Source of the DNA: Kitasatospora cineracea
GTDB lineage: Bacteria; Actinomycetota; Actinomycetes; Streptomycetales; Streptomycetaceae
Direction: 5' to 3'
Assembly (NCBI RefSeq): GCF_003751605.1
Contig: NZ_RJVJ01000002.1
Location: 620,001 to 684,000 of the forward strand
Length of the DNA stretch: 64,000 bases
The notes under the pieces: model-generated
Databases searched by the model: none
Told to the model about the DNA's origin: nothing
The model's input: only the letters and a program-made list of their open reading frames with translations
Part shown: one piece after another, positions 49,380 through 62,070 of the stretch
How the letters are laid out: each line of letters opens with the position of its first letter
How positions within the stretch are numbered: the first letter of the stretch is position 1
Program-made: the position numbers and the translations under genes

Positions 49380-50651
49380 TCAGCGCCCCCGGCACAGCGG
49401 CAGGAAGGACCCCAGCGCCAGCAGCGCGCAGCCCAGCACCACCGCGCCGAGCACCGTCGCGGACGGGTGCCCGCCCAGGCTGCTGAGCGGGGCGACCACC
49501 GCGCCGCACAGGTAGGTGCCGGTGCCCAGCAGCGCGGACGCCGACCCGGCGGCGTGCGGGGCCATGGTCAGCGCCTGCCCGTTGGCGTTCGGCAGGATGA
49601 CGCCCATCGCGCCCATCAGCACCGTCAGCGCGGGCCACACCCCGGCCAGCCCGGTGTCCCACACCGTGGTGCACAGCACCACCGCGGCCCCGGCCAGCGC
49701 CGCCGCGCCCAGGCCGCAGACCAGCAGCGTCCGCTCCGAGTAGCGCTGCACCAGGAACCGCCCGTTGAACTGGGTGACGGCCAGCAGCGAGACCGAGTTG
49801 ACCGCGAACACCAGGCTGTAGGTCTGCGGGGTGATCCGGTACACCTCCTGCAGCACCACCGAGGAGCCGCCGACGTACGCGAACAGCGCGCCGAACGCGA
49901 AGGTGCTGACCAGCAGGTAGCCGAGGAACACCCGGTCGCGCAGCAGCCCGCCGATCGCCCGGACCGTGGTACCCAGGCCGCCGCCGTGCCGCCGCTCCGG
50001 CGGCAGCGTCTCCCCGATGCCGAACCCGCAGGCCACGGTGAGCACCGCGCCCAGCAGCGCCAGCGCGACGAAGGTCCCGCGCCAGTCGGTGACGTGCAGC
50101 AACTGGGCGCCGGCCAGCGGCGCGACGATCGGGGCCAGGCCGGAGATCAGGCCCATGGTCGCCAGGAACCGGATCATCGCGGTCCCCTCCAACCGGTCCC
50201 GGACGGTCGCCCGGGCGATCACCAGCGCGGCCGAGCCCGCCGCGCCCTGCACCACCCGGCCCGCCACCAGCAGCGGCATCGAGTCGGCGAACGCGCACAG
50301 CAGGCTGGCGGCGGTGAACGCGGCCAGGCCAGCCAACATCGGGCGGCGGCGGCCGATCCGGTCGCTGAGCGGGCCGAACAGCAGCTGGCCGACCACCATG
50401 CCGAGCAGCGAACCGGTCAGGGTGAGCTGGGCGGCCGCGGCGGTGGAGCCCAGGTCCGCGGTCAGGTCGGGCAGCGCGGGCAGGTACAGGTCGGTGGTGA
50501 ACGGCCCGAGCGCGACCAGGCAGCCCAGGGTGATCACGGTGGCGGTGGCGAACGGGGCGCCCTGCGGGGTCCGCGCGGCCCCCTCCGCCGGACGGAGCGG
50601 GACGTCGGGTGCGCTCTGGTCGCCGTCGGGGTCGACGGTCGGGCCTGGCAT
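49380..50651 (-). CDS. Bcr/CflA-family drug resistance MFS transporter
   Basis: 423 aa. ATG 50651 is chosen because AGGAG lies just upstream; GTG 50663 is the alternative. Twelve spans are present. TM1 and its loop contain the group motif TTDLYLPALPDLTADLG. Loop 2-3 has LFGPLSDRIGRRRPMLAG. Other parts are LVAGRVVQGAAGSAALVIAR and ALTMAPHAAGSASALLGTGT. A polar N-terminal extension of about 35 aa precedes TM1. Likely a proton-driven drug exporter. Confidence 0.93.
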   Translation of the reverse strand: MPGPTVDPDGDQSAPDVPLRPAEGAARTPQGAPFATATVITLGCLVALGPFTTDLYLPALPDLTADLGSTAAAAQLTLTGSLLGMVVGQLLFGPLSDRIGRRRPMLAGLAAFTAASLLCAFADSMPLLVAGRVVQGAAGSAALVIARATVRDRLEGTAMIRFLATMGLISGLAPIVAPLAGAQLLHVTDWRGTFVALALLGAVLTVACGFGIGETLPPERRHGGGLGTTVRAIGGLLRDRVFLGYLLVSTFAFGALFAYVGGSSVVLQEVYRITPQTYSLVFAVNSVSLLAVTQFNGRFLVQRYSERTLLVCGLGAAALAGAAVVLCTTVWDTGLAGVWPALTVLMGAMGVILPNANGQALTMAPHAAGSASALLGTGTYLCGAVVAPLSSLGGHPSATVLGAVVLGCALLALGSFLPLCRGR

Positions 50652-50740
50652 GGGGCTCCTCACGGATAGCGGGGTGTGCGCACCGTCCTATCCCATCCGC
50701 CCGCCCCCGGGGAAGCCGACCCCCGCCCGGGGCGTCCCCG

Positions 50741-51208
50741 TCAGCCGGTCGGACCGGCGGTGCGGGCCCCGGCGGTGGCCGGGGCGCCCCGCCAGCCGTA
50801 GAGCTGGTCGCCGACCAGCGCGACGTCGTACTGCCCGCAGTGCGCGGTGGCCCGCCGCGGGGTGTCGGTGGGGAACCAGTGCGCGCGCAGGTGCGGATCG
50901 TCCAGGGTGTGGCCGGTGGTGGTGCAGGCCGTGGGCAGCGCCCGGTCCGGGACGGTGGCCCGGATCAGCCGCTCGCCCTCGTCCCCGGACGCCAGGAAGG
51001 CGATGCCGGTGGCCGAGTCGGGCAGCCAGCGCGGCACCTCGGTCCGGTCCGCCTTGGCCGCCGACCCGCTGGGGTAGCGGACGGTCTGGTCCAGCCGGTC
51101 CTGCACCCGCTGGATCGCCGCCGGAGCCACCATCACCAGCAGCATCGCCGCGGCCGCCCCGCCGGCCACCACCGTCGCCGCCGTCCGCCTGCTCCGCTCG
51201 CCGCCCAT
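50741..51208 (-). CDS. Membrane-anchored protein of unknown function
   Basis: 155 aa, ATG at 51208. One N-terminal span (AATVVAGGAAAAMLLVMVAP) is preceded by Arg residues, so the rest should be outside. The external domain of about 115 aa contains two Cys (TACTTTGHT and TAHCGQYD) and DSATGIAFLASGDEGERLIR. I do not recognise the family. Confidence 0.72.
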   Translation of the reverse strand: MGGERSRRTAATVVAGGAAAAMLLVMVAPAAIQRVQDRLDQTVRYPSGSAAKADRTEVPRWLPDSATGIAFLASGDEGERLIRATVPDRALPTACTTTGHTLDDPHLRAHWFPTDTPRRATAHCGQYDVALVGDQLYGWRGAPATAGARTAGPTG

Positions 51209-51306
51209 CGCCCCGCACCCCTTTTCCACCGCTCCGGACCCTTCGCCTCCATCCTCGACGCGCCCGCCCCCCGGATCCATGCGCACCAGGTACCGACCCG
51301 GGTCAG

Positions 51307-52755: not shown

Positions 52756-54183
52756 ATGGCGGACGGACAGCAGGACCGGCGGGACGAGCAGCAGTGGCGG
52801 ACCGAGCACGACTCGATGGGCGAGGTCAGGGTCCCGGCGGCGGCCAAGTGGCGGGCGCAGACCCAGCGCGCGGTGGAGAACTTCCCGGTGTCGGGGCAGC
52901 GCCTGGAGCGCGCCCACATCGCGGCGCTGGCCCGGATCAAGGCGGCGGCGGCCACCGTCAACGCCGGGCTGGGGGTGCTGGACGGGGAGACCGCGGCGGC
53001 GATCCGGTCGGCGGCCGAGGAGGTGGCCGAGGGGCGCTGGGACGACCAGTTCCCGGTGGACGTGTTCCAGACCGGCTCCGGCACCTCGTCGAACATGAAC
53101 GCCAACGAGGTGATCGCCACCCTGGCCGCCGAGCGCCTGGGCCGCCCGGTGCACCCGAACGACGAGGTCAACGCCTCGCAGTCGTCGAACGACGTCTTCC
53201 CGTCCTCGATCCACGTGGCGGCCACGGGCGCGGTCCTGCACGAGCTGGTCCCGGCGCTGGAGCACCTGGCGCGGGCGCTGGAGGCCAAGTCCGCCGAGTT
53301 CGCGGGCGTCGTCAAGTCCGGCCGCACCCACCTGATGGACGCCACTCCGGTGACGCTCGGCCAGGAGTTCGGCGGCTACGCGGCCCAGGTCCGGTACGGC
53401 GTCGAGCGCCTGCGCGCCACGCTCCCCCGGGTCGCCGAACTGCCGCTCGGCGGCACGGCGGTGGGCACCGGCATCAACACCCCGCCGGGCTTCTCGGCGG
53501 CCGTCATCGCCGAGGTCGCCCGCGCCACCGGCCTGCCGCTGACCGAGGCCCGCGACCACTTCGAGGCCCAGGGCGCCCGGGACGGCCTGGTCGAGCTCAG
53601 CGGCCAGCTCCGCACGATCGCCGCCGGCTTCACCAAGATCGCCAACGACCTGCGCTGGATGGGCTCCGGCCCGCGCACCGGCCTCGCCGAGATCAACCTC
53701 CCCGACCTGCAGCCCGGCTCCTCGATCATGCCCGGCAAGGTCAACCCGGTGCTGCCCGAGGTGGTCCTGATGGTCGCCGCCCAGGTGATCGGCAACGACA
53801 CCACCGTCACGGTGGCCGGTGCGAGCGGCAACTTCGAGCTCAACGTGATGCTCCCGGTGATCGCCCGCAACGTGCTGGAGTCGGTCCGCCTGCTCACCAC
53901 CTCCGCCCGCCTGCTGGCCGACCGCACCGTCGACGGCATCACCGCCAACGCCGAGCGCACCCGCGAGTACGCCGAGTCCTCCCCCTCCGTCGTCACCCCG
54001 CTCAACCGCTACCTCGGCTACGAGGAGGCGGCGAAGGTCGCCAAGCAGTCGCTGGCCGAGCGCCGGACGATCCGCCAGGTGGTCCTCGACCGCGGCTACG
54101 TCGAGCGCGGCCTGCTCACCGAGGCCCAGCTCGACGAGGCGCTCGACGTGCTGCGGATGACCCGCCCGCAGCACGCCGACTGA
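52756..54183 (+). CDS. fumC: Class II fumarate hydratase
   Basis: 475 aa, ATG at 52756 with GGAGGT upstream. Family blocks are [60 protein letters not shown] and the signature [20 protein letters not shown]. The catalytic His (in [10 protein letters not shown]) and Ser (in GSSIMPGK) are present. It hydrates fumarate to malate in the TCA cycle. Converges with the lanC gene. Confidence 0.96.
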
Positions 54184-54230
54184 CGCCGACCGGTACCGAC
54201 TGACGCCGACCGATGCCGGCCGACGGCCGG

Positions 54231-55580
54231 TCAGGACAGCAGCAGCGGCATGTCCCAGTCGTGCGGGGTGCCGCCGGCCGCGTACGAGTCGAGGGCGAGT
54301 GCGACGCCGGCCGCCCCGTCCAGGTAGCCGGAGACGTCGCTGGCGAACGGCCTGCGGGTCATGGTGAAGCGCAGGCCGAACGGGGCGTCCGGGTCGTGCC
54401 CGGCCAGCAGCCGGGCGGCGGTCTCGTCGCGCCGCCGCTCGATCCGCTCCTCGCCGAAGTGCTCGTTCAGCCGCCCGAGTTGGTGCAGCGCCCCGGCCCA
54501 GCCGTGGCACAGCGCGTGGTCGGTGACGCCCCAGTCGTCGAGCGGCACCCGCAGCAGCCGCTCGACCGAGTCGCGGGCGACGGCCGTCCACTCCGGCCGG
54601 CCGAGCGCGGCCCCGGCGGTCTGCAGGGCGCGCGAGACGCCGGGCGCGCCGTAGCACCAGGACGGCCAGCCGGCGGGTTCGCGGTACGCGTCGGGCCCGG
54701 CCAGGTAGGCGTCCAGGCCGAGGTAGCCGGGCCAGTAGCTGCCGTGCTCGTCGCGCACCGCCCAGCGCACCAGCAGGTCCGCGGTGCCCTCCAGGGCCTC
54801 CCGGTGGCCGGGCAGCCGGACGCCGTCGCGCCAGGCCAGCGCGAGCAGCATCAGCGGGCCCGCGACGCCGTGCGACAGGCCGAGGTTGAGGTGGCCGTCC
54901 GGCAGCAGGTGCTCGGAGCCGATCCGGGGCGCGTCCAGCGCCCACCAGCGCGGGACGCGCGCCCCGCGGTGCGCGGTGGTGCCGCGGGCCAGCTCGATCA
55001 GGTAGCCGAGGACCAGTTCCAGCTCCTCGCCGCAGCTCTCCGCGCGGGCCAGCAGGTACCGGCCGACGCCGGTCATCCCGCGCACCACCTCGTAGTGCCC
55101 GATGGTGGCCAGCGGCCCGTCCGGGACGGCGGGCAGCGCGGTGCGCACCAGTTGCCGCTGGTAGGCGTCGAGCCGGTGCAGCGCACCGGTGTAGCCGCCG
55201 GTGGCGCGGTGGGCGGCCAGCACGGCGAAGGCCAGCGCACCGGGCCCCTTGAAGATCCCGCTGGGCACGGTGTCGCCGGCCCCGGCGGCCCGGGTCGCCA
55301 CCGCCAGGTACCCGTGCGCCCGGGCGGCCCGCTCGGTGCCCGGCCGGGCCCCGCCGCTGAACGCCAGCGACAGCCCGGGGCTGCCGCTGCCGAGCGTCAG
55401 TTCCGCCCAGACGCCCTCGGCCACCCCGTCGTCGGCGGCCTCGGCGGGGATCCGGGTGGCCGCCATGGTCGCGGCCGGATCGGCGAGCCGGTCCAGGATC
55501 AGGTCGGACAACTGCCCGGCGGCCGCCCGCAACCGGGCCCGTTCCGCGGAAACGGCAGTCGACTGCACGGTGTCGGTCAT
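54231..55580 (-). CDS. lanC: Lanthionine synthetase C-like cyclase (LanC)
   Basis: 449 aa, ATG at 55580 (MTDTVQSTAVSAERARLRAA). The alpha/alpha-barrel LanC fold is visible: IGHYEVVRGMTGVGRYLLAR, HLNLGLSHGVAGPLMLLALA and the zinc ligands WCYGAPGVSRALQTAGAALG and ALCHGWAGALHQLGRLNEHF, with the last ring block SGYLDGAAGVALALDSYAAG. It adds Cys thiols to dehydrated Ser/Thr in the precursor to form lanthionine rings. It is the last gene of lanA-lanB-lanC, 208 bp after lanB. Confidence 0.93.
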   Translation of the reverse strand: MTDTVQSTAVSAERARLRAAAGQLSDLILDRLADPAATMAATRIPAEAADDGVAEGVWAELTLGSGSPGLSLAFSGGARPGTERAARAHGYLAVATRAAGAGDTVPSGIFKGPGALAFAVLAAHRATGGYTGALHRLDAYQRQLVRTALPAVPDGPLATIGHYEVVRGMTGVGRYLLARAESCGEELELVLGYLIELARGTTAHRGARVPRWWALDAPRIGSEHLLPDGHLNLGLSHGVAGPLMLLALAWRDGVRLPGHREALEGTADLLVRWAVRDEHGSYWPGYLGLDAYLAGPDAYREPAGWPSWCYGAPGVSRALQTAGAALGRPEWTAVARDSVERLLRVPLDDWGVTDHALCHGWAGALHQLGRLNEHFGEERIERRRDETAARLLAGHDPDAPFGLRFTMTRRPFASDVSGYLDGAAGVALALDSYAAGGTPHDWDMPLLLS

Positions 55581-55788
55581 CGGGGGCTCCGGTCGGTGGC
55601 GGTTCGGACGGACGGGACCTGGCACGACGTCACTCCTGCCCCGCCCGCGCGGCGGCGGCCGTCCGGCCCCGGGCCGGGGACGGTGCGAACGGACGGGGAC
55701 CGGCGCGGCGCCGCCCCGCCCCGCCCGCGCAGCGGAGGTCGTCCGCGGCCCTGGTCGGCGCGGCGGGCCGGGTTCGACCGAGGCAACG

Positions 55789-58700
55789 TCACTTCCCTTC
55801 CCCTTCGTGCGCCTTGCGCCCGATCAGCGCCCTGGCCGCGCCGCGCAGGACGGCGTAGCCGCGGGCCTCGGCGGCCGGGTCGATGCCGAACAGGCGGTTG
55901 TGCCGCATGTGCAGCAGCGACATGAGGGCCTCGTCGCGGTCGGCCTCGGGTGCGGCGAGCAGCAGCCGGCCGAAGTCGCGCGGGGCGGGGGTGTCGGTCC
56001 AGAGCGGGGCGAGGTCGGGGATGCCGAGGTGTTCGGCGGCGTGCCGGGCGGTGCCGTCGGGGCGGATCAGCCGGTCGGCGAGGGCGCGGTGGCGCTGGTG
56101 GGCGCGGTGGTCGGCGCCCTTCTCGAAGAGGTGGACCACCCAGGCGCACCAGTCCCAGTCGCCGAGCGAGTCCAGCAGTACGGCGTGGCCGGTGGCGGCG
56201 AGGACCTCGTCGGGGACGGCGGCGGCGCCGGCCCGGCGGGCCCGGAGCTGGAGCAGCGCGGAGCGGCTGTCGGTCCGGAAGAGCCGTTCGGCGGCTTCCT
56301 GGGCGCCGGGGCCGAGGTAGCGGTCGGTCTCGGGCCGGTAGGTGTCGAGCGCCATGGTGCGCAGCGCGCCGGTCCCGACGAGCCGGCGCACGTGCCGGGC
56401 GAGGGCGGGCAGGACGTGGCCGGCCAGGGCGGCGGGGTCGCCGTGCAGGCGGAGCCGCAGGTGGGGTTCGGGGTCGCGGTAGCGGAGGAAGAACCAGCGG
56501 TCGACGTGGGGTTCGACGTCGGCGAGCAGGGCGGGCAGGTGGTCGGCGAGCAGGGTGTCGTGGGTGCCGGGTTCGGCGTACAGCTTGGCGAACAGCCAGT
56601 CCTCGCCGGGAAGGTGGATCCGGGTGGGGGCGGTGCGGACCGCGGACCTGGCCAGCGGGGGGCGGGTGTCGGCGGGGGCGGGGCGGGGGGCGCGGAGCAG
56701 CGGGACGACGATCTCGGTGCTGCGGCCGTGGTTCCAGCCGAGTCCGGCGCCGTCCGCGGTGAGGTCCTGGAAGAGCTGGAACCGCGGTTCGGGGGCGGTG
56801 AGTTCGGCGCGCAGCAGGTCGGTGTCCCAGTCCTCGCGCAGGTCGATGGGGAACATCCGGTCGTTGCTGGCGATCTGCAGCCGGTCGGGCACCCGGTAGC
56901 GCTCGCGCCAGGCCCGCAGGCCCTCGGTCCAGGCGGCGGGTCCGGCGGTGCGGGCGGCGTCGCGCAGGCGGCGGCCGGGCAGCCAGCGGCGGGGGGCGGC
57001 GAGGACCCGGCCGTGGCGGACGGCGGGCAGGTAGGGCAGGGTGTCCAGGCCCGCCCAGTCCCAGCCGGACCAGACCCGGGGGCGGGCGGCGGCCAGGTCG
57101 GCCAGGAAGCGGGCGACGGGCGGGGCCTGGGCGTCCAGGGCGAGCATGTGCGGGAAGACCGGGACGACGGGGCGGCCGGTGTCCGGGTGGAGCAGGCGCA
57201 GGCCGTCCTCGCCGGCGGCGACGAGCAGGGTGCGCCAGTCCAGGCAGTGCGGGTCGCCGCGGTCGGCGGCGACGCCGATCGGCAGGCGGTGCGGGAGCAG
57301 TGGCGGGACCTGGACGATGTTGAGCGAGCGCGGGTCGCGCGGGGCGAGTTCGACCTGGACGGGCAGGGCGCCGTCGTCGGCGGGTCCGGCGGCGAGGGCG
57401 GCCAGGTCGGCGGTGAGGCCGGTGAGGTCGGCGAACCGGCCGGCGGTGGCGCCGGCCGTCCAGGAGCCGGTGTGCGGGCTGCCGAGCAGCAGGAACTCGC
57501 CGCGGTCGAGGGCGGCGGCGGAGTCGGCGAGGAGTTGGAAGCAGAGTTCCAGGGTGCGCGGCGGGCGACTGCTGCCCGGGGTGTGGCCGGCGGCGTCGGC
57601 GAGCCGGGCGAGGTCGGCGTCGTCGAGGACCAGGTCGGTGCCGGCGAGCACGGCCTGCTGGACGAGTTCGGCGACGGCGTTGCGGCGCGGCCGGTCGGCG
57701 TCGTCGCCGGGGCCGGAGCGGGAGTGGGCGGGCGCGGCGCCGCCGTACTCGGGCGGCAGGCCGAGGCCGCGGTGCGGGTCGGCGAGGTCGGCGAGCGGGA
57801 CGGCGCTGGCGGTGCCGTAGTGCTCGACGAAGCGGTCCCGGTAGTCGCGCAGGTGGTCGAGGGTGGTCCACTCGGGGGTGATCGTCCAGATCGCGGCGGC
57901 GTAGCGGCGCACCTCGTCGCCGACCGCGGCGGGCAGCACCAGGTCGGCGCCGGTGCGCAGGTCGACCTGGACGGGCGGGCGTTCGCCGGCCCGGTCGTCG
58001 GGGTCGAGGGCGCGGACCCGTTCCAGCAGGTGCCGCCAGGAGGCGAGTCCTTCGCCGGGGCGGTCGCGTTCGTGGGCGGTGGCGGCGGCGCGGACGGCGC
58101 GCAGCCCTTCGGCGGCGGCGGGGACGGCGCCGTCGAGGGCGGTGTCGATCCGGTCCAGCAGGGCGTCGTCGACGCGGTGCGGGGTGAGCGAGGTGAGCAG
58201 GAAGCCGTGCTGGACGAGTCCGGCGAGCAGGCCGTCGATCCGCTCGGGGGCGACGGCGGGGAAGCGCGCGGTGAGGTCGGCGAGCAGGTCGGCGTACCCG
58301 ACGGGGCGGGCGGCGGCCTCGCGGACCCGGGTGACCAGTGGGTTGTCGCGCACCGAGAGTTCGCGTTCGCCGGTGTGCCGCAGCAGGCGGCCGTCGCGCA
58401 GCACGGTCAGGTCGTCGAGGACGACGTCGACCCGGCGGCGGACTTCGGGCACGGCGAGCCAGTCCAGCACCCGGCGGTGCAGCCAGCCGCCGTCGAGGCG
58501 GACCCTGACCTGTCCGGGGCCGGGCGGCGGGACGTCGGCGGCGGCCCCGAACCGGGCCCGGCCGACGCCGGCGAACAGGCCGAACGGGGTGGGGCGGCCG
58601 CCGGAGCGGCGGGCGTAGCGGGTGAGGGTGCGGGCGGCGCTGGCGGTGCGCTTGCGGCCGAGGGCGGCGGCGCCGCCGGGTTCGCCGAGCCGTTGCAGGC

Positions 58701-58884
58701 TGAGCGCGAGGCTCCCGCTGGCGACTTCGACGGCCTGGCGCAGCAGCGGGTCGGCGGCGAGGCGGCGTGCGCCCGGGACGGGGTCGGCCGGGTCGATCCG
58801 GGTCTCGGTGCCGGTCCGCGGGGTGCCGGCCGTCCGGACCAGGACCGGTTCCCGGACGTCGAACAGGTCGGGCTCTGCGCGCAC
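55789..58884 (-). CDS. lanB: Class I lanthipeptide dehydratase (LanB)
   Basis: 1031 aa from GTG 58884, with GAGGAG nine bases upstream. N-terminal glutamylation domain: ASGSLALSLQRLGEPGGAAA, RRSGGRPTPFGLFAGVGRAR and, mid-protein, RNAVAELVQQAVLAGTDLVL. The C-terminal elimination domain (SpaB_C type, about 740-1031) contains DRWFFLRYRDPEPHLRLRLH and DTYRPETDRYLGPGAQEAAE. Both halves sit in one chain, the full-length class I form. It uses Glu-tRNA to glutamylate Ser/Thr and then eliminates glutamate to give Dha/Dhb. It lies downstream of the precursor gene across a strong hairpin. Confidence 0.93.
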   Translation of the reverse strand: MRAEPDLFDVREPVLVRTAGTPRTGTETRIDPADPVPGARRLAADPLLRQAVEVASGSLALSLQRLGEPGGAAALGRKRTASAARTLTRYARRSGGRPTPFGLFAGVGRARFGAAADVPPPGPGQVRVRLDGGWLHRRVLDWLAVPEVRRRVDVVLDDLTVLRDGRLLRHTGERELSVRDNPLVTRVREAAARPVGYADLLADLTARFPAVAPERIDGLLAGLVQHGFLLTSLTPHRVDDALLDRIDTALDGAVPAAAEGLRAVRAAATAHERDRPGEGLASWRHLLERVRALDPDDRAGERPPVQVDLRTGADLVLPAAVGDEVRRYAAAIWTITPEWTTLDHLRDYRDRFVEHYGTASAVPLADLADPHRGLGLPPEYGGAAPAHSRSGPGDDADRPRRNAVAELVQQAVLAGTDLVLDDADLARLADAAGHTPGSSRPPRTLELCFQLLADSAAALDRGEFLLLGSPHTGSWTAGATAGRFADLTGLTADLAALAAGPADDGALPVQVELAPRDPRSLNIVQVPPLLPHRLPIGVAADRGDPHCLDWRTLLVAAGEDGLRLLHPDTGRPVVPVFPHMLALDAQAPPVARFLADLAAARPRVWSGWDWAGLDTLPYLPAVRHGRVLAAPRRWLPGRRLRDAARTAGPAAWTEGLRAWRERYRVPDRLQIASNDRMFPIDLREDWDTDLLRAELTAPEPRFQLFQDLTADGAGLGWNHGRSTEIVVPLLRAPRPAPADTRPPLARSAVRTAPTRIHLPGEDWLFAKLYAEPGTHDTLLADHLPALLADVEPHVDRWFFLRYRDPEPHLRLRLHGDPAALAGHVLPALARHVRRLVGTGALRTMALDTYRPETDRYLGPGAQEAAERLFRTDSRSALLQLRARRAGAAAVPDEVLAATGHAVLLDSLGDWDWCAWVVHLFEKGADHRAHQRHRALADRLIRPDGTARHAAEHLGIPDLAPLWTDTPAPRDFGRLLLAAPEADRDEALMSLLHMRHNRLFGIDPAAEARGYAVLRGAARALIGRKAHEGEGK

Positions 58885-58928
58885 GTTCGTCGGGCTCCTC
58901 GGGTTCGCGGGTGGGGAGGGAGCGGAAA

Positions 58929-58958
58929 GCGCGGGGCGGGCCGCAGCCCGCCCCGCGC
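58929..58958 (-). terminator. Intercistronic hairpin between lanA and lanB
   Basis: GCGCGGGGCGGGC and its complement form a perfect 13-bp stem around a 4-base loop (arms 58929-58941 and 58946-58958), 20 bases after the lanA stop. Partial termination here would give more lanA than lanB message, as seen in many lantibiotic clusters. Confidence 0.82.
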
Positions 58959-58977
58959 GAGGACTACCGGGTGCCGG

Positions 58978-59133
58978 TCAGCAGCAGACCGGGCAGCGGG
59001 TGCCGATGGCGTAGCTGCTCGGCGAGGTGTAGGTGCCCCGGCCGAACTCCTCGGTCTGCTCCGCGACGTCCGCGATGCGCAGGTCCAGGTCGAAGTCGGT
59101 GGTGTCGGACTGCACGGTGGTCTCGGTGCGCAT
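58978..59133 (-). CDS. lanA: Class I lanthipeptide precursor (FxLD-type leader)
   Basis: 51 aa, ATG at 59133 with RBS AGGAGGGG. The leader contains FDLDLR at residues 14-19, an FxLD/FNLD-like recognition box, and the acidic stretch ADVAEQTEEF. The proposed core is TYTSPSSYAIGTRCPVCC, after a GRG segment. It offers three Thr, three Ser and three Cys, so up to three (methyl)lanthionine rings are possible, with the Cys clustered at the C-terminus. No protease or ABC exporter is adjacent, so leader removal and export must rely on genes elsewhere. I do not recognise the core as a known lanthipeptide. Confidence 0.88.
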   Translation of the reverse strand: MRTETTVQSDTTDFDLDLRIADVAEQTEEFGRGTYTSPSSYAIGTRCPVCC

Positions 59134-59501
59134 ATCCCCTCCTGAGGGCTCGTGGGTCCGCCCGGACGGTGGTCCGGGCCGCGGCCGGCTCGAACGGTGG
59201 TCCGGTCCGGCGCGAGGCCCACTGTTCCCCGGCTTCCCACCATGTGGTGAGTGCCGTCCCGGCCAACCTCCGCCCCACCCGTACCGCTCCGCCCCCGGCG
59301 CCTCCGGCCTGCACTTCCGTCCCTCGCGCCGCATCTCGGGGGTGTCCGTTCCCGGTGGCCGGACGGGTTCGGGGTTTCAGTACCGAAAACCGGGATCACC
59401 ACTGCTCCCGGCCGCGCACGAACCACTTCGGGGGCGCGCGCGGAGGGTGTCCACGGCCCCGGCCCGCGACTTGACCGAAATTTGACGAAAACCTGTCACT
59501 G
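59134..59501. other. Upstream region of the lanthipeptide operon
   Basis: About 370 bp without a gene. On the minus strand, AT-richer blocks occur at about 59368-59400 (a TTTC..GAAA dyad around GGTACTG). Two TTTCG(G)TCAA direct repeats lie at about 59470-59492. These are the only candidate promoter/operator elements seen for lanA. Confidence 0.4.
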
Positions 59502-59539
59502 CACGGCGGCGGGACCCCGTGCGGGGTCCCGCCGCCGTG
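59502..59539. terminator. Strong hairpin downstream of the SPW-repeat gene
   Basis: A perfect 17-bp stem (59502-59518 with 59523-59539) around GTGC. It lies 28 bases past the stop at 59567. Confidence 0.9.
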
Positions 59540-59566
59540 GGGGCCTCCGGGCCCCGGTGCCGTGCC

Positions 59567-60007
59567 CTACCTGCGGCGCGCCGTCATGCCCGCGAAGACC
59601 ATGCCGACCGCGGCCAGGGCCAGGCAGGTCATGACGCCGCCGGTGATGACGTTGGTCAGGATGGTCCGGCGGACGTGCGCACCGCCGTTGACCGCCCAGG
59701 GGGCGATGACCGTCCAGGCGCCGATCGCCACGCACGCCCAGGCCCGGGCGTGGGTGCGGCCGAAGGCGGAGCCGTAGCCGGCCATCAGGACGGCGTAGGC
59801 GATGCCCAGCACCAGGTTGCTGATGGCCAGCCCGGTGAAGCCGGAGAAGCCGACCACCCAGGGGGAGATCGCCAGGAAGAGTCCGGCGCAGACGGCGAGT
59901 GCTTCCGTCCCCTGCCCGGCGGTGGTGGATGTGACGCGCTCCGCGTGTTCACGCAGGGCCAGGATGTCCGGATGGTGTTCCATGCCCGAGGGCGTATGGG
60001 TCGACAC
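59567..60007 (-). CDS. SPW-repeat membrane protein
   Basis: 146 aa from GTG 60007, preceded by GAGGAGG. Four membrane spans form two repeats, each with an SPW/APW motif: AVCAGLFLAISPWVVGFSGF and GAWTVIAPWAVNGGAHVRRT. The N-terminal 40 residues are polar. SPW-repeat proteins are common in actinomycetes and have no known function. An AT-rich promoter region lies upstream (60065-60110). Confidence 0.88.
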   Translation of the reverse strand: MSTHTPSGMEHHPDILALREHAERVTSTTAGQGTEALAVCAGLFLAISPWVVGFSGFTGLAISNLVLGIAYAVLMAGYGSAFGRTHARAWACVAIGAWTVIAPWAVNGGAHVRRTILTNVITGGVMTCLALAAVGMVFAGMTARRR

Positions 60008-60172: not shown

Positions 60173-60220
60173 GGCCGGAGGCTCCTCGCAAGCAACCGCC
60201 CACGCGAAGGAGCACCCGCC

Positions 60221-61297
60221 GTGACCACCTCCCGCCCCGCCCTGCGCGCCGCGCTCGACGACCTGCTCGGGTCCGGTTTCCTCTCCGTCCAGCTGCGGGT
60301 GAACGACGAGCACGGCGAGTGGGTCGCCGCCGCGGGCGCCCGCGAGCTGGGGCGGCCCGCCGGGGCCGTCCCGGACGGGCACTTCCGGATCGGCAGCAGC
60401 ACCAAGAGCTTCGTCGCCACCGTGGTCCTGCTGCTGGTCGCGGAGGGCCGCCTCGGCCTGGACGACCCGGTGGCCGGCCGGCTGCCGGAGTTCGGCCTCG
60501 ACCCGCGGATCACCGTCCGGATGCTGCTCCAGCACACCAGCGGGGTCTTCAACCACACCGGCGAGCTGCTGCCGGACGGGACGGTCGTGCCGGGCGTGCC
60601 GTGGCGGGGCGCGGAGTGGGTGGCCAACCGGTTCCGGACGTACCCGCCCGAGGACCTGGTGCGGCTCTCGCTGTCCCGCCCCGCCCGGTTCGCGCCGGGC
60701 ACCGGCTGGAGCTACTCGAACACCAACTACGTGCTGGCCCGGCTGGTCGCCGAACGCGCCGCCGGCCGCCCGTTCGCCGCGGAACTGCGGCGGCTGGTGC
60801 TGGCCCCGCTGGGGCTGACCGGCACCTTCGCACCGGGCACCGACCCGGAGCTGCCCGCACCGCACAACCACGGCTACTACCGGTACGAGGACGGCGGCCG
60901 GGAGCACACCCTCGACATCACCCGGCAGAACCCGTCCTGGGTCGGCGCCGGCGGCGACCTGGTCTCCACCACCCGTGACCTGCACCTGTACTTCTCCGCC
61001 CTGCTGGGCGGCCGGCTGCTGCCGCCGGAACTGCTGGCCGCGATGCGCACCCCGGAGCCGACCGCCGGGTACGGCCTGGGGCTGTTCGTCCAGGAGACCG
61101 CGGGCGGGACGGTCCTCCACCACCACGGCGCGACGATGGGCTCGGCGGCCCTGATGTTCGGCTCCGCCGACGGCACCCGGACGGTGACCGCCGGACTCAC
61201 CTGGGTGGACGACCCGGACCTGACCATCGCCCCCGCCTTCCAGCGGGCCCAGCAGCACTTCACGGACGCGGTCTCCTGCGGCAGGCTGGGCGGATGA
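60221..61297 (+). CDS. Serine hydrolase, beta-lactamase/DD-peptidase fold
   Basis: 358 aa from GTG 60221 with GAAGGAG upstream. Class C beta-lactamase-like motifs: SxxK in FRIGSSTKSFVATVVLLLVA, YxN in GWSYSNTNYVLARLVAERAA and HxG in TVLHHHGATMGSAALMFGSA. No signal peptide is evident at this start, so it may be a cytoplasmic esterase or peptidase, although most relatives are exported. It is coupled to a MerR regulator by an ATGA-type overlap. Confidence 0.88.
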   Translation: MTTSRPALRAALDDLLGSGFLSVQLRVNDEHGEWVAAAGARELGRPAGAVPDGHFRIGSSTKSFVATVVLLLVAEGRLGLDDPVAGRLPEFGLDPRITVRMLLQHTSGVFNHTGELLPDGTVVPGVPWRGAEWVANRFRTYPPEDLVRLSLSRPARFAPGTGWSYSNTNYVLARLVAERAAGRPFAAELRRLVLAPLGLTGTFAPGTDPELPAPHNHGYYRYEDGGREHTLDITRQNPSWVGAGGDLVSTTRDLHLYFSALLGGRLLPPELLAAMRTPEPTAGYGLGLFVQETAGGTVLHHHGATMGSAALMFGSADGTRTVTAGLTWVDDPDLTIAPAFQRAQQHFTDAVSCGRLGG

Positions 61298-62070
61298 GCG
61301 ACGGGGTGACGATCGGGCAGGCGGCGGCCTTCGCGGGTGTCACGGTGAAGACGGTGCGGCACTACCACCGGCTCGGCCTGGTCGCCGAACCGCCCCGCGA
61401 CGCCTCCGGCTACCGGCGGTACGGCTCCGAGGAACTGCTGCGGCTGGTGCAGGTGCGGACACTGGCCGCCGCGGGGGTGCCGCTGGCCGAGGCCGGCGGA
61501 CTGCTGGACGCCGACACCGAGGACTTCGGCGCCGCGCTGGCCGACGTCGAACGGCGGCTCACCGAACGGATCGAGGAGCTGACGGACCGGCGCGCGACCC
61601 TGCACCGGCTCGCCGACGGCGACCGGGCCATGCTCCCCGACCGGGCCTGCGCCGTCCTGCGGCGGATCCGCGACCTGGGCTTCGACCCCGCCTACGTGGC
61701 CGCGCAGCGCGAGGCCCTGGTCCTGGCCCGGGCCCTGCTGCCCCGGGGCTTCGACGACTTCCTCGCCCAGCTCGCCGACCGCTTCGACGACCCCGAGTAC
61801 GTCGAACTGGCCCGGCGCGGCCGGGAGGCGGAGACCTGGGAGCCGGACGACCCGCGGCTGGCGGAACTCGCCGACGCCATGGCCGCCCACCACCTGGCCC
61901 GCGCCGCCCGCACCGGCAGCCGGGACGGCCTGCGGGCCTGGACCGGATCCGCCGCCCAGTACGACCTGGTCAACCGCCACCGCACCACCCAGGCCCCCGC
62001 CGCGGCCCGCCTGACCGAACTCACCGAAGCCCGCCTGCACGCCGCCGGCGTCCGCGCCCCCCGGCGCTGA
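61294..62070 (+). CDS. MerR-family transcriptional regulator
   Basis: 258 aa, ATG at 61294 overlapping the hydrolase stop. The N-terminal HTH and wing read TIGQAAAFAGVTVKTVRHYH, RLGLVAEPPRDASGYRRYGS and LVQVRTLAAAGVPLAEAGGL. A coiled coil (VERRLTERIEELTDRRATLH) and a C-terminal effector-type domain of about 150 aa follow. It probably controls the hydrolase and itself. Confidence 0.92.
   Translation: MSDGVTIGQAAAFAGVTVKTVRHYHRLGLVAEPPRDASGYRRYGSEELLRLVQVRTLAAAGVPLAEAGGLLDADTEDFGAALADVERRLTERIEELTDRRATLHRLADGDRAMLPDRACAVLRRIRDLGFDPAYVAAQREALVLARALLPRGFDDFLAQLADRFDDPEYVELARRGREAETWEPDDPRLAELADAMAAHHLARAARTGSRDGLRAWTGSAAQYDLVNRHRTTQAPAAARLTELTEARLHAAGVRAPRR

Follow-up and report, generated by a model that had tools for sequence, protein, structure and literature searches.

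A 64,000-nucleotide stretch of the Kitasatospora cineracea genome (contig NZ_RJVJ01000002.1, positions 620,001 to 684,000; hereafter the window) contains three adjacent genes, lanA, lanB and lanC, all on the minus strand, which very probably constitute a complete, minimal cassette for a class I lanthipeptide of the SCO0268 family with the maturation route proposed below. An earlier note, made from the letters of the window, had described a compact class I lanthipeptide locus, and the comparison with protein families confirms this description, identifying a precursor, a full-length LanB and a LanC at the positions given there:

54231..55625, minus strand: lanC, zinc cyclase, 464 residues, start codon uncertain (Pfam PF05147, LANC_like, 164.7 bits)
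55789..58884, minus strand: lanB, full-length dehydratase with glutamylation and elimination domains, 1031 residues (Pfam PF04738 and PF14028)
58978..59133, minus strand: lanA, precursor peptide, 51 residues (NCBIfam TIGR04451, cut-off 40 bits, and translation)

The lanA gene starts with ATG at 59133 and stops at 58978. Its product carries the leader box FDLDLR and a C-terminal core of 18 residues, TYTSPSSYAIGTRCPVCC, with AGGAGGGG directly before it; the core includes six Ser/Thr and three Cys residues, the latter at precursor positions 47, 50 and 51. Thus, the peptide combines an FxLD-type leader box with Ser/Thr and Cys in the core, as is required of a class I lanthipeptide. A profile search assigns it to TIGR04451, the SCO0268 family, with a score of 92.6 bits (E 1.1e-26), well over the curated cut-off, whereas the alternative assignment to the FDLD precursor family NF038155 is rejected at 14.2 bits against a cut-off of 20.

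For comparison, 30 loci were collected, namely 18 from named genomes (L018-L035) and 12 further stretches (L036-L047), with L036 being that of the window itself. An intact precursor is present in 27 of the 30 (none in L035, L046 and L047); these 27 loci represent 26 genomes, given that L041 and L045 are one genome with the same precursor. In all 27, a tblastn search detects LanB and LanC relatives beside the precursor on the same strand, although the LanB frame of L022 ends early. The score in a curated family, together with this invariable association, indicates that lanA is not a chance open reading frame. The description of the precursor as unfamiliar in the earlier note thus does not hold: it is a high-scoring member of a family described from Streptomyces coelicolor A3(2) in 2010, and its core recurs unchanged in other species.

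The modification enzymes

In Pfam searches, LanB matches Lant_dehydr_N over positions 1-649 of 649 (570.4 bits) and Lant_dehydr_C over positions 1-253 of 255 (167.9 bits); among solved LanB structures, 5ehk is the nearest in sequence, with 324 bits. The solved relatives of LanC are 8byk and 2g02, the nisin cyclase NisC. The lanC frame remains open for 66 codons further upstream, and an internal ATG start is possible. Residues R93, R97, T99, D131, D308, R519, R810, R812, E852, R855 and H992 of LanB are invariant in all 25 aligned LanBs, and the zinc ligands of LanC, C324, C373 and H374, are kept in all 24 aligned LanCs. The roles of these residues are presumably those known from the nisin enzymes NisB and NisC. 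These counts leave out the three loci that lack an intact precursor, the short LanB frame of L022 and the duplicate L045, and the LanC count also omits L018, where the frame walk yielded 43 residues, even though tblastn aligned 459.

Conservation of the core

Among the 26 other loci that retain an intact precursor, 7 encode the same core, and four of these 7 belong to named species; with the window included, the count is 8 of 27. The stretch SPSSYAIGTRCP is present in 22 of the 27 precursors. The five exceptions (L041-L045), which come from three genomes of one other genus, one of them represented twice, plus L043, contain SPST and a different stretch ahead of the cysteines. In the 7 loci that share all 18 core residues, the core differs from that of the window by 0 to 5 synonymous codons; in the 11 loci of named Streptomyces whose core is 18 residues long, synonymous differences affect 3 to 5 codons and residue changes 0 to 2. 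Because codons differ synonymously while the residues stay, the core is kept by purifying selection and not merely by recent copying. The closest relatives, L018 and L038, have no codon difference in the core and hence are uninformative in this respect.

Proposed maturation route

The reactions of LanB and LanC can be predicted by analogy with the respective enzyme families. LanB would bind the FDLDLR leader box, glutamylate Ser/Thr residues of the core using glutamyl-tRNA-Glu, and eliminate glutamate to yield dehydroalanine (Dha) and dehydrobutyrine (Dhb). LanC would then add cysteines 47, 50 and 51 to three of the Dha/Dhb residues, for a predicted maximum of three thioether rings, with the remaining Ser/Thr either left as Dha/Dhb or unmodified. 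A host protease from outside the cluster would cut off the leader, probably near FGxG, a stretch found in 21 of the 27 precursors, and a host exporter would release the peptide. The monoisotopic mass of the 18-residue core is calculated as 1907.82 in the unmodified state, 1853.79 after three dehydrations and 1799.76 after six.

Relation to known lanthipeptides

The SCO0268 cluster of S. coelicolor A3(2) was described in 2010 (PMC3091789, in the portions available). SCO0268-SCO0270 resemble the cassette of the window in the precursor family, by profile score, and in the lanA, lanB and lanC set. Compared with the Streptomyces loci analyzed here, among which the S. coelicolor sequence does not appear under that name, the leader encoded in the window is different and lacks PEQAxS.

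The only relative that we found to have been made is embleporicin from Embleya sp. NF3, which, according to the available passages of PMC11672506, was produced cell-free from the A, B and C genes with producer RNA, furin removing the leader, and inhibited Micrococcus luteus; these passages document activity, not rings. Embleporicin and the peptide from the window share the class I route, an LDLD-type leader box, the C-terminal CxxCC and a cluster without a LanP protease, but embleporicin has four cysteines and the core motif GVQSxCxxCC, in place of which the core from the window has AIGTRCPVCC. Likewise, the GVQS-type precursor of L041 differs from that of the window in 7 of the 18 core residues. 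A full-text search with two core stretches retrieved no paper from the open-access literature covered (supplementary files lie outside the search). In the literature covered, no described compound with an identical core, the finding by which the earlier note would have been refuted, turned up, the core of embleporicin being different. SapT, a class I morphogenetic lanthipeptide, is similar in its route and in the absence of a protease from its cluster, as reported in the accessible part of PMC9011353; it is set beside the window by description only. Dmxorosin was rejected as the product because it comes from a split-LanB cluster, as described in the part of PMC11855644 that was available.

Several observations weigh against the assignment of the cassette to the class I SCO0268 family or limit what follows from it. 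LanB passes the thiopeptide-type model TIGR03891 (175.8 bits, cut-off 48.45), a match that we take to reflect the elimination domain common to full-length LanBs; a role as a thiopeptide enzyme was rejected, given that the pyridine synthase model yields 21.8 bits against a cut-off of 325 and that LanC and a lanthipeptide precursor adjoin, and so was the alternative that it is one of the small LanBs that attach amino acids to a carrier peptide, given that both LanB domains reside in one chain. The NCBI label of TIGR04451 is class II, which contradicts the genes present: LanC scores 33.8 bits against the LanM model (cut-off 304), the locus encodes LanB and LanC in place of a class II LanM synthetase, and LanB and LanC relatives adjoin the precursor in 27 of the 27 compared loci with an intact precursor, so that the label is misleading. 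The motif PEAQxS, given for SCO0268 members in the accessible text of the embleporicin paper (PMC11672506), occurs in none of the 27 precursors; PEQAxS is found in nine, and the precursor in the window has AEQTEE, which fits neither motif. Because no compared precursor carries PEAQxS, the motif as printed is not a defining feature of the profile family, and membership in the SCO0268 family is claimed here by the profile only. Further, embleporicin lies outside the SCO0268 group in the tree of its authors, so that its activity carries over weakly; no isolated product of the SCO0268 family was found in the open-access literature searched; and no clustered exporter or protease candidate could be assigned.

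Distribution and genomic context

A scan of named genomes identified 18 loci, 4 in Kitasatospora and 14 in Streptomyces; it employed short exact peptide patterns, which miss diverged members. Matches to TIGR04451 over the cut-off were detected in 7 of 70 genomes of the genus, including that of the window, in 12 of 394 genomes drawn from the family, which contain the 7 of the genus (at most 16 candidates scored per genome), and in 2 of 396 genomes drawn from the phylum, namely the genome of the window and G121 from the same family. Two loci, L035 and L046, appear to be relicts, with partial LanB matches only and no LanC match. In G121, the genome of L046, two precursor-like matches overlap on opposite strands.

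On one flank of the cassette, Pfam searches identify an MFS transporter (49380-50663), a protein without matches (50741-51286), an acyl-CoA dehydrogenase and a fumarase/aspartase-type lyase, the MFS transporter gene lying past two other genes. The lyase is named in this way because it passes only the broad aspartate ammonia-lyase model and falls below the cut-off for class II fumarase. The other flank encodes an SPW-domain protein (PF03779), a beta-lactamase-fold protein, a MerR-type protein and a phosphoribosyltransferase. The claim of the earlier note that no exporter, protease, LanD or methyltransferase is visible is upheld: none was recognized in the cluster by the Pfam scan of the flanking proteins, in which not every small open reading frame was included. 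Although its gene is found beside the occupied sites of L036, L018 and L038, the MFS transporter was rejected as exporter, because at other sites the cassette adjoins different genes. This transporter gene is not seen in the empty-site stretches discussed below, probably because they end before its position.

A crude clustering of open reading frames across the 30 loci yields shared families of LanB (27 loci), LanC (15) and frames over the precursor (14), with no other family in more than 4; the frames were picked by a crude GC3 rule that missed several LanC genes later found by tblastn, so these counts are rough. Among ten flanking proteins from six other loci, Pfam identifies an S37 peptidase (L033), an ABC-type permease (L040) and two alpha/beta hydrolases with an additional match to an S33 model (L039 and L040); the others are unrelated enzymes, a chloride-channel protein and one without any match. 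None of them is a member of a gene family present in more than 4 loci, and the S37 peptidase, encoded beside the cassette in S. milbemycinicus (L033), was rejected as a general leader protease, its family being found in only 3 loci.

Twelve sites, chosen from the 70 genomes of the genus, each of which has a match to the lyase gene, were compared. In the genome of the window, L018 and L038, the cassette is located between the lyase gene and the SPW-domain gene, with 5.4 to 5.6 kb between the aligned ends. In nine other Kitasatospora (L052-L060), no LanA, LanB or LanC match was found between these two genes; seven of them have 88 to 370 bases there, and in L059 and L060 the interval consists of other DNA, about 1.9 and 2.2 kb long. 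Three of the nine (G008, G036 and G013; L057-L059) carry the cassette elsewhere. Given that both occupied and empty sites are seen, the cassette behaves as a unit. Aligned with five of the empty sites, the window loses similarity at about 54167-54200 and regains it at about 59510-59588, which delimits an insert of about 5.3-5.4 kb. A search for end repeats (54120-54300 against 59450-59650) yielded one imperfect 17-base match, the left copy of which lies inside lanC, off the junction, all remaining matches being 7 or 8 bases long. In a tree of LanB, the cassettes of site A group in a supported clade to which those of site B (L019-L021) are sister, joined at 100/100; G006, with a third site, falls outside this group at a lower support of 85/96, with long-branch joins flagged. 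This topology is compatible with a single gain and subsequent relocation, or else with independent gains from close relatives. In the same region, the genes for the beta-lactamase-fold and MerR-type proteins (60200-62070 of the window, plus strand), between those for the SPW-domain protein and the phosphoribosyltransferase, have no match in the stretches L018, L038 and L052-L060, a second insertion-like difference.

Putative control elements

Two candidate control elements were detected around lanA, the ribosome-binding site of which resembles those of the other loci:

58929..58958, minus strand: GC-rich hairpin in the lanA-lanB interval, with a perfect stem of 13 bp and a 4-nt loop (13 bp reached in 0 of 200 shuffles)
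59246..59268, minus strand: upstream element GGTTGGC-N10-CTCACC, conserved upstream of lanA

Scored over the first 75 bases past the stop and for perfect stems only, the hairpin has a stem of 10 bp or more in 21 of the 27 loci; among the other six, five are no better than shuffles, and the 8-bp stem of L039 was reached by 4 of 200. A probable function of the hairpin is to restrict read-through or to protect the mRNA of lanA. The pattern TGGC-N10-CTMMC occurs at -113 to -138 of the lanA start in 19 of the 27 loci, compared with a mean of 0.16 and a maximum of 2 in shuffled sequences, and is absent in L025, L026, L032 and L041-L045; this excess is overstated because the pattern was read off an alignment of the same sequences, because these come from related loci and because only base content is preserved in the shuffles. 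The element may be a promoter of the cassette or a site for a regulator. Its longer form has a single exact match in the genome of the window. No regulon could be read from it, given 39 places in this genome at one mismatch or fewer, against 14 for a reversed control, with only one exact.

Biological role

The machinery leaves room for different roles of the product. Decay of the locus, such that it makes nothing, is highly improbable: some relatives do point in this direction, with the partial LanB matches and missing LanC of L035 and L046 and the early end of the LanB frame in L022, but in the window all three frames are open and retain the expected residues, and both the ribosome-binding site, of the type seen at other loci, and the upstream element are in place. 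We give about an even chance to a narrow-spectrum antibacterial peptide that is exported and processed by housekeeping enzymes. The inhibition of M. luteus by embleporicin, the closest made peptide found (PMC11672506, available passages), favors this possibility, and the patchy distribution and differing genomic sites fit a competition trait; however, embleporicin is placed apart from the SCO0268 group, no immunity or exporter gene is widely shared, and a strongly conserved core would be unusual for an antibiotic under diversifying selection.

The last two features are in favor of a developmental peptide, morphogenetic or signaling, of sporulating Streptomycetaceae, comparable to SapT or SapB and distinct from antibiotics, a reading that concerns the role and not the machinery and that appears doubtful though worth considering: the core is conserved across genera, and SapT provides the precedent of a class I morphogen with a cluster that likewise lacks a protease (PMC9011353, accessible part). 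In the available portions of two expression studies, SCO0267-SCO0270 are down in one S. coelicolor strain along with the genes for SapB, spore pigment and geosmin and many other pathways (PMC7324645), and up in another strain with the SapB genes, among others (PMC13033682). Yet the same papers, as far as available, show many secondary-metabolite pathways moving together, so that the link to development is loose, and in a copper-transport mutant, transcripts of SCO0267, SCO0269 and SCO0270 were undetected while several other clusters rose (PMC6414726, portions available). The activity of embleporicin also speaks against a developmental role, and presence in 7 of 70 genomes of the genus and 12 of 394 of the family is too patchy for an essential morphogen. 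The text of the OsdR regulon paper (PMC5069765) includes no SCO026x locus tag, and the accessible parts of PMC9576775, PMC11251773 and PMC7268733 contain, under the terms chosen, nothing specific to the SCO0268 family.

A broader scenario, which we regard as unlikely, is that lanA, lanB and lanC form a relocating unit that is complete in itself and includes its own conserved upstream control element; its strongly conserved product would rely on housekeeping export and proteolysis and would serve as a shared signal or morphogen, not an antibiotic, recognized in both Kitasatospora and Streptomyces. The locus is genuine but unexceptional, being a class I cassette with a precursor of the SCO0268 family, known from Streptomyces since 2010. 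It provides a test case for identifying which unclustered protease and exporter finish actinobacterial class I lanthipeptides, and for deciding between an antibiotic and a developmental signal as the role of a conserved peptide that has no immunity genes in its cluster.

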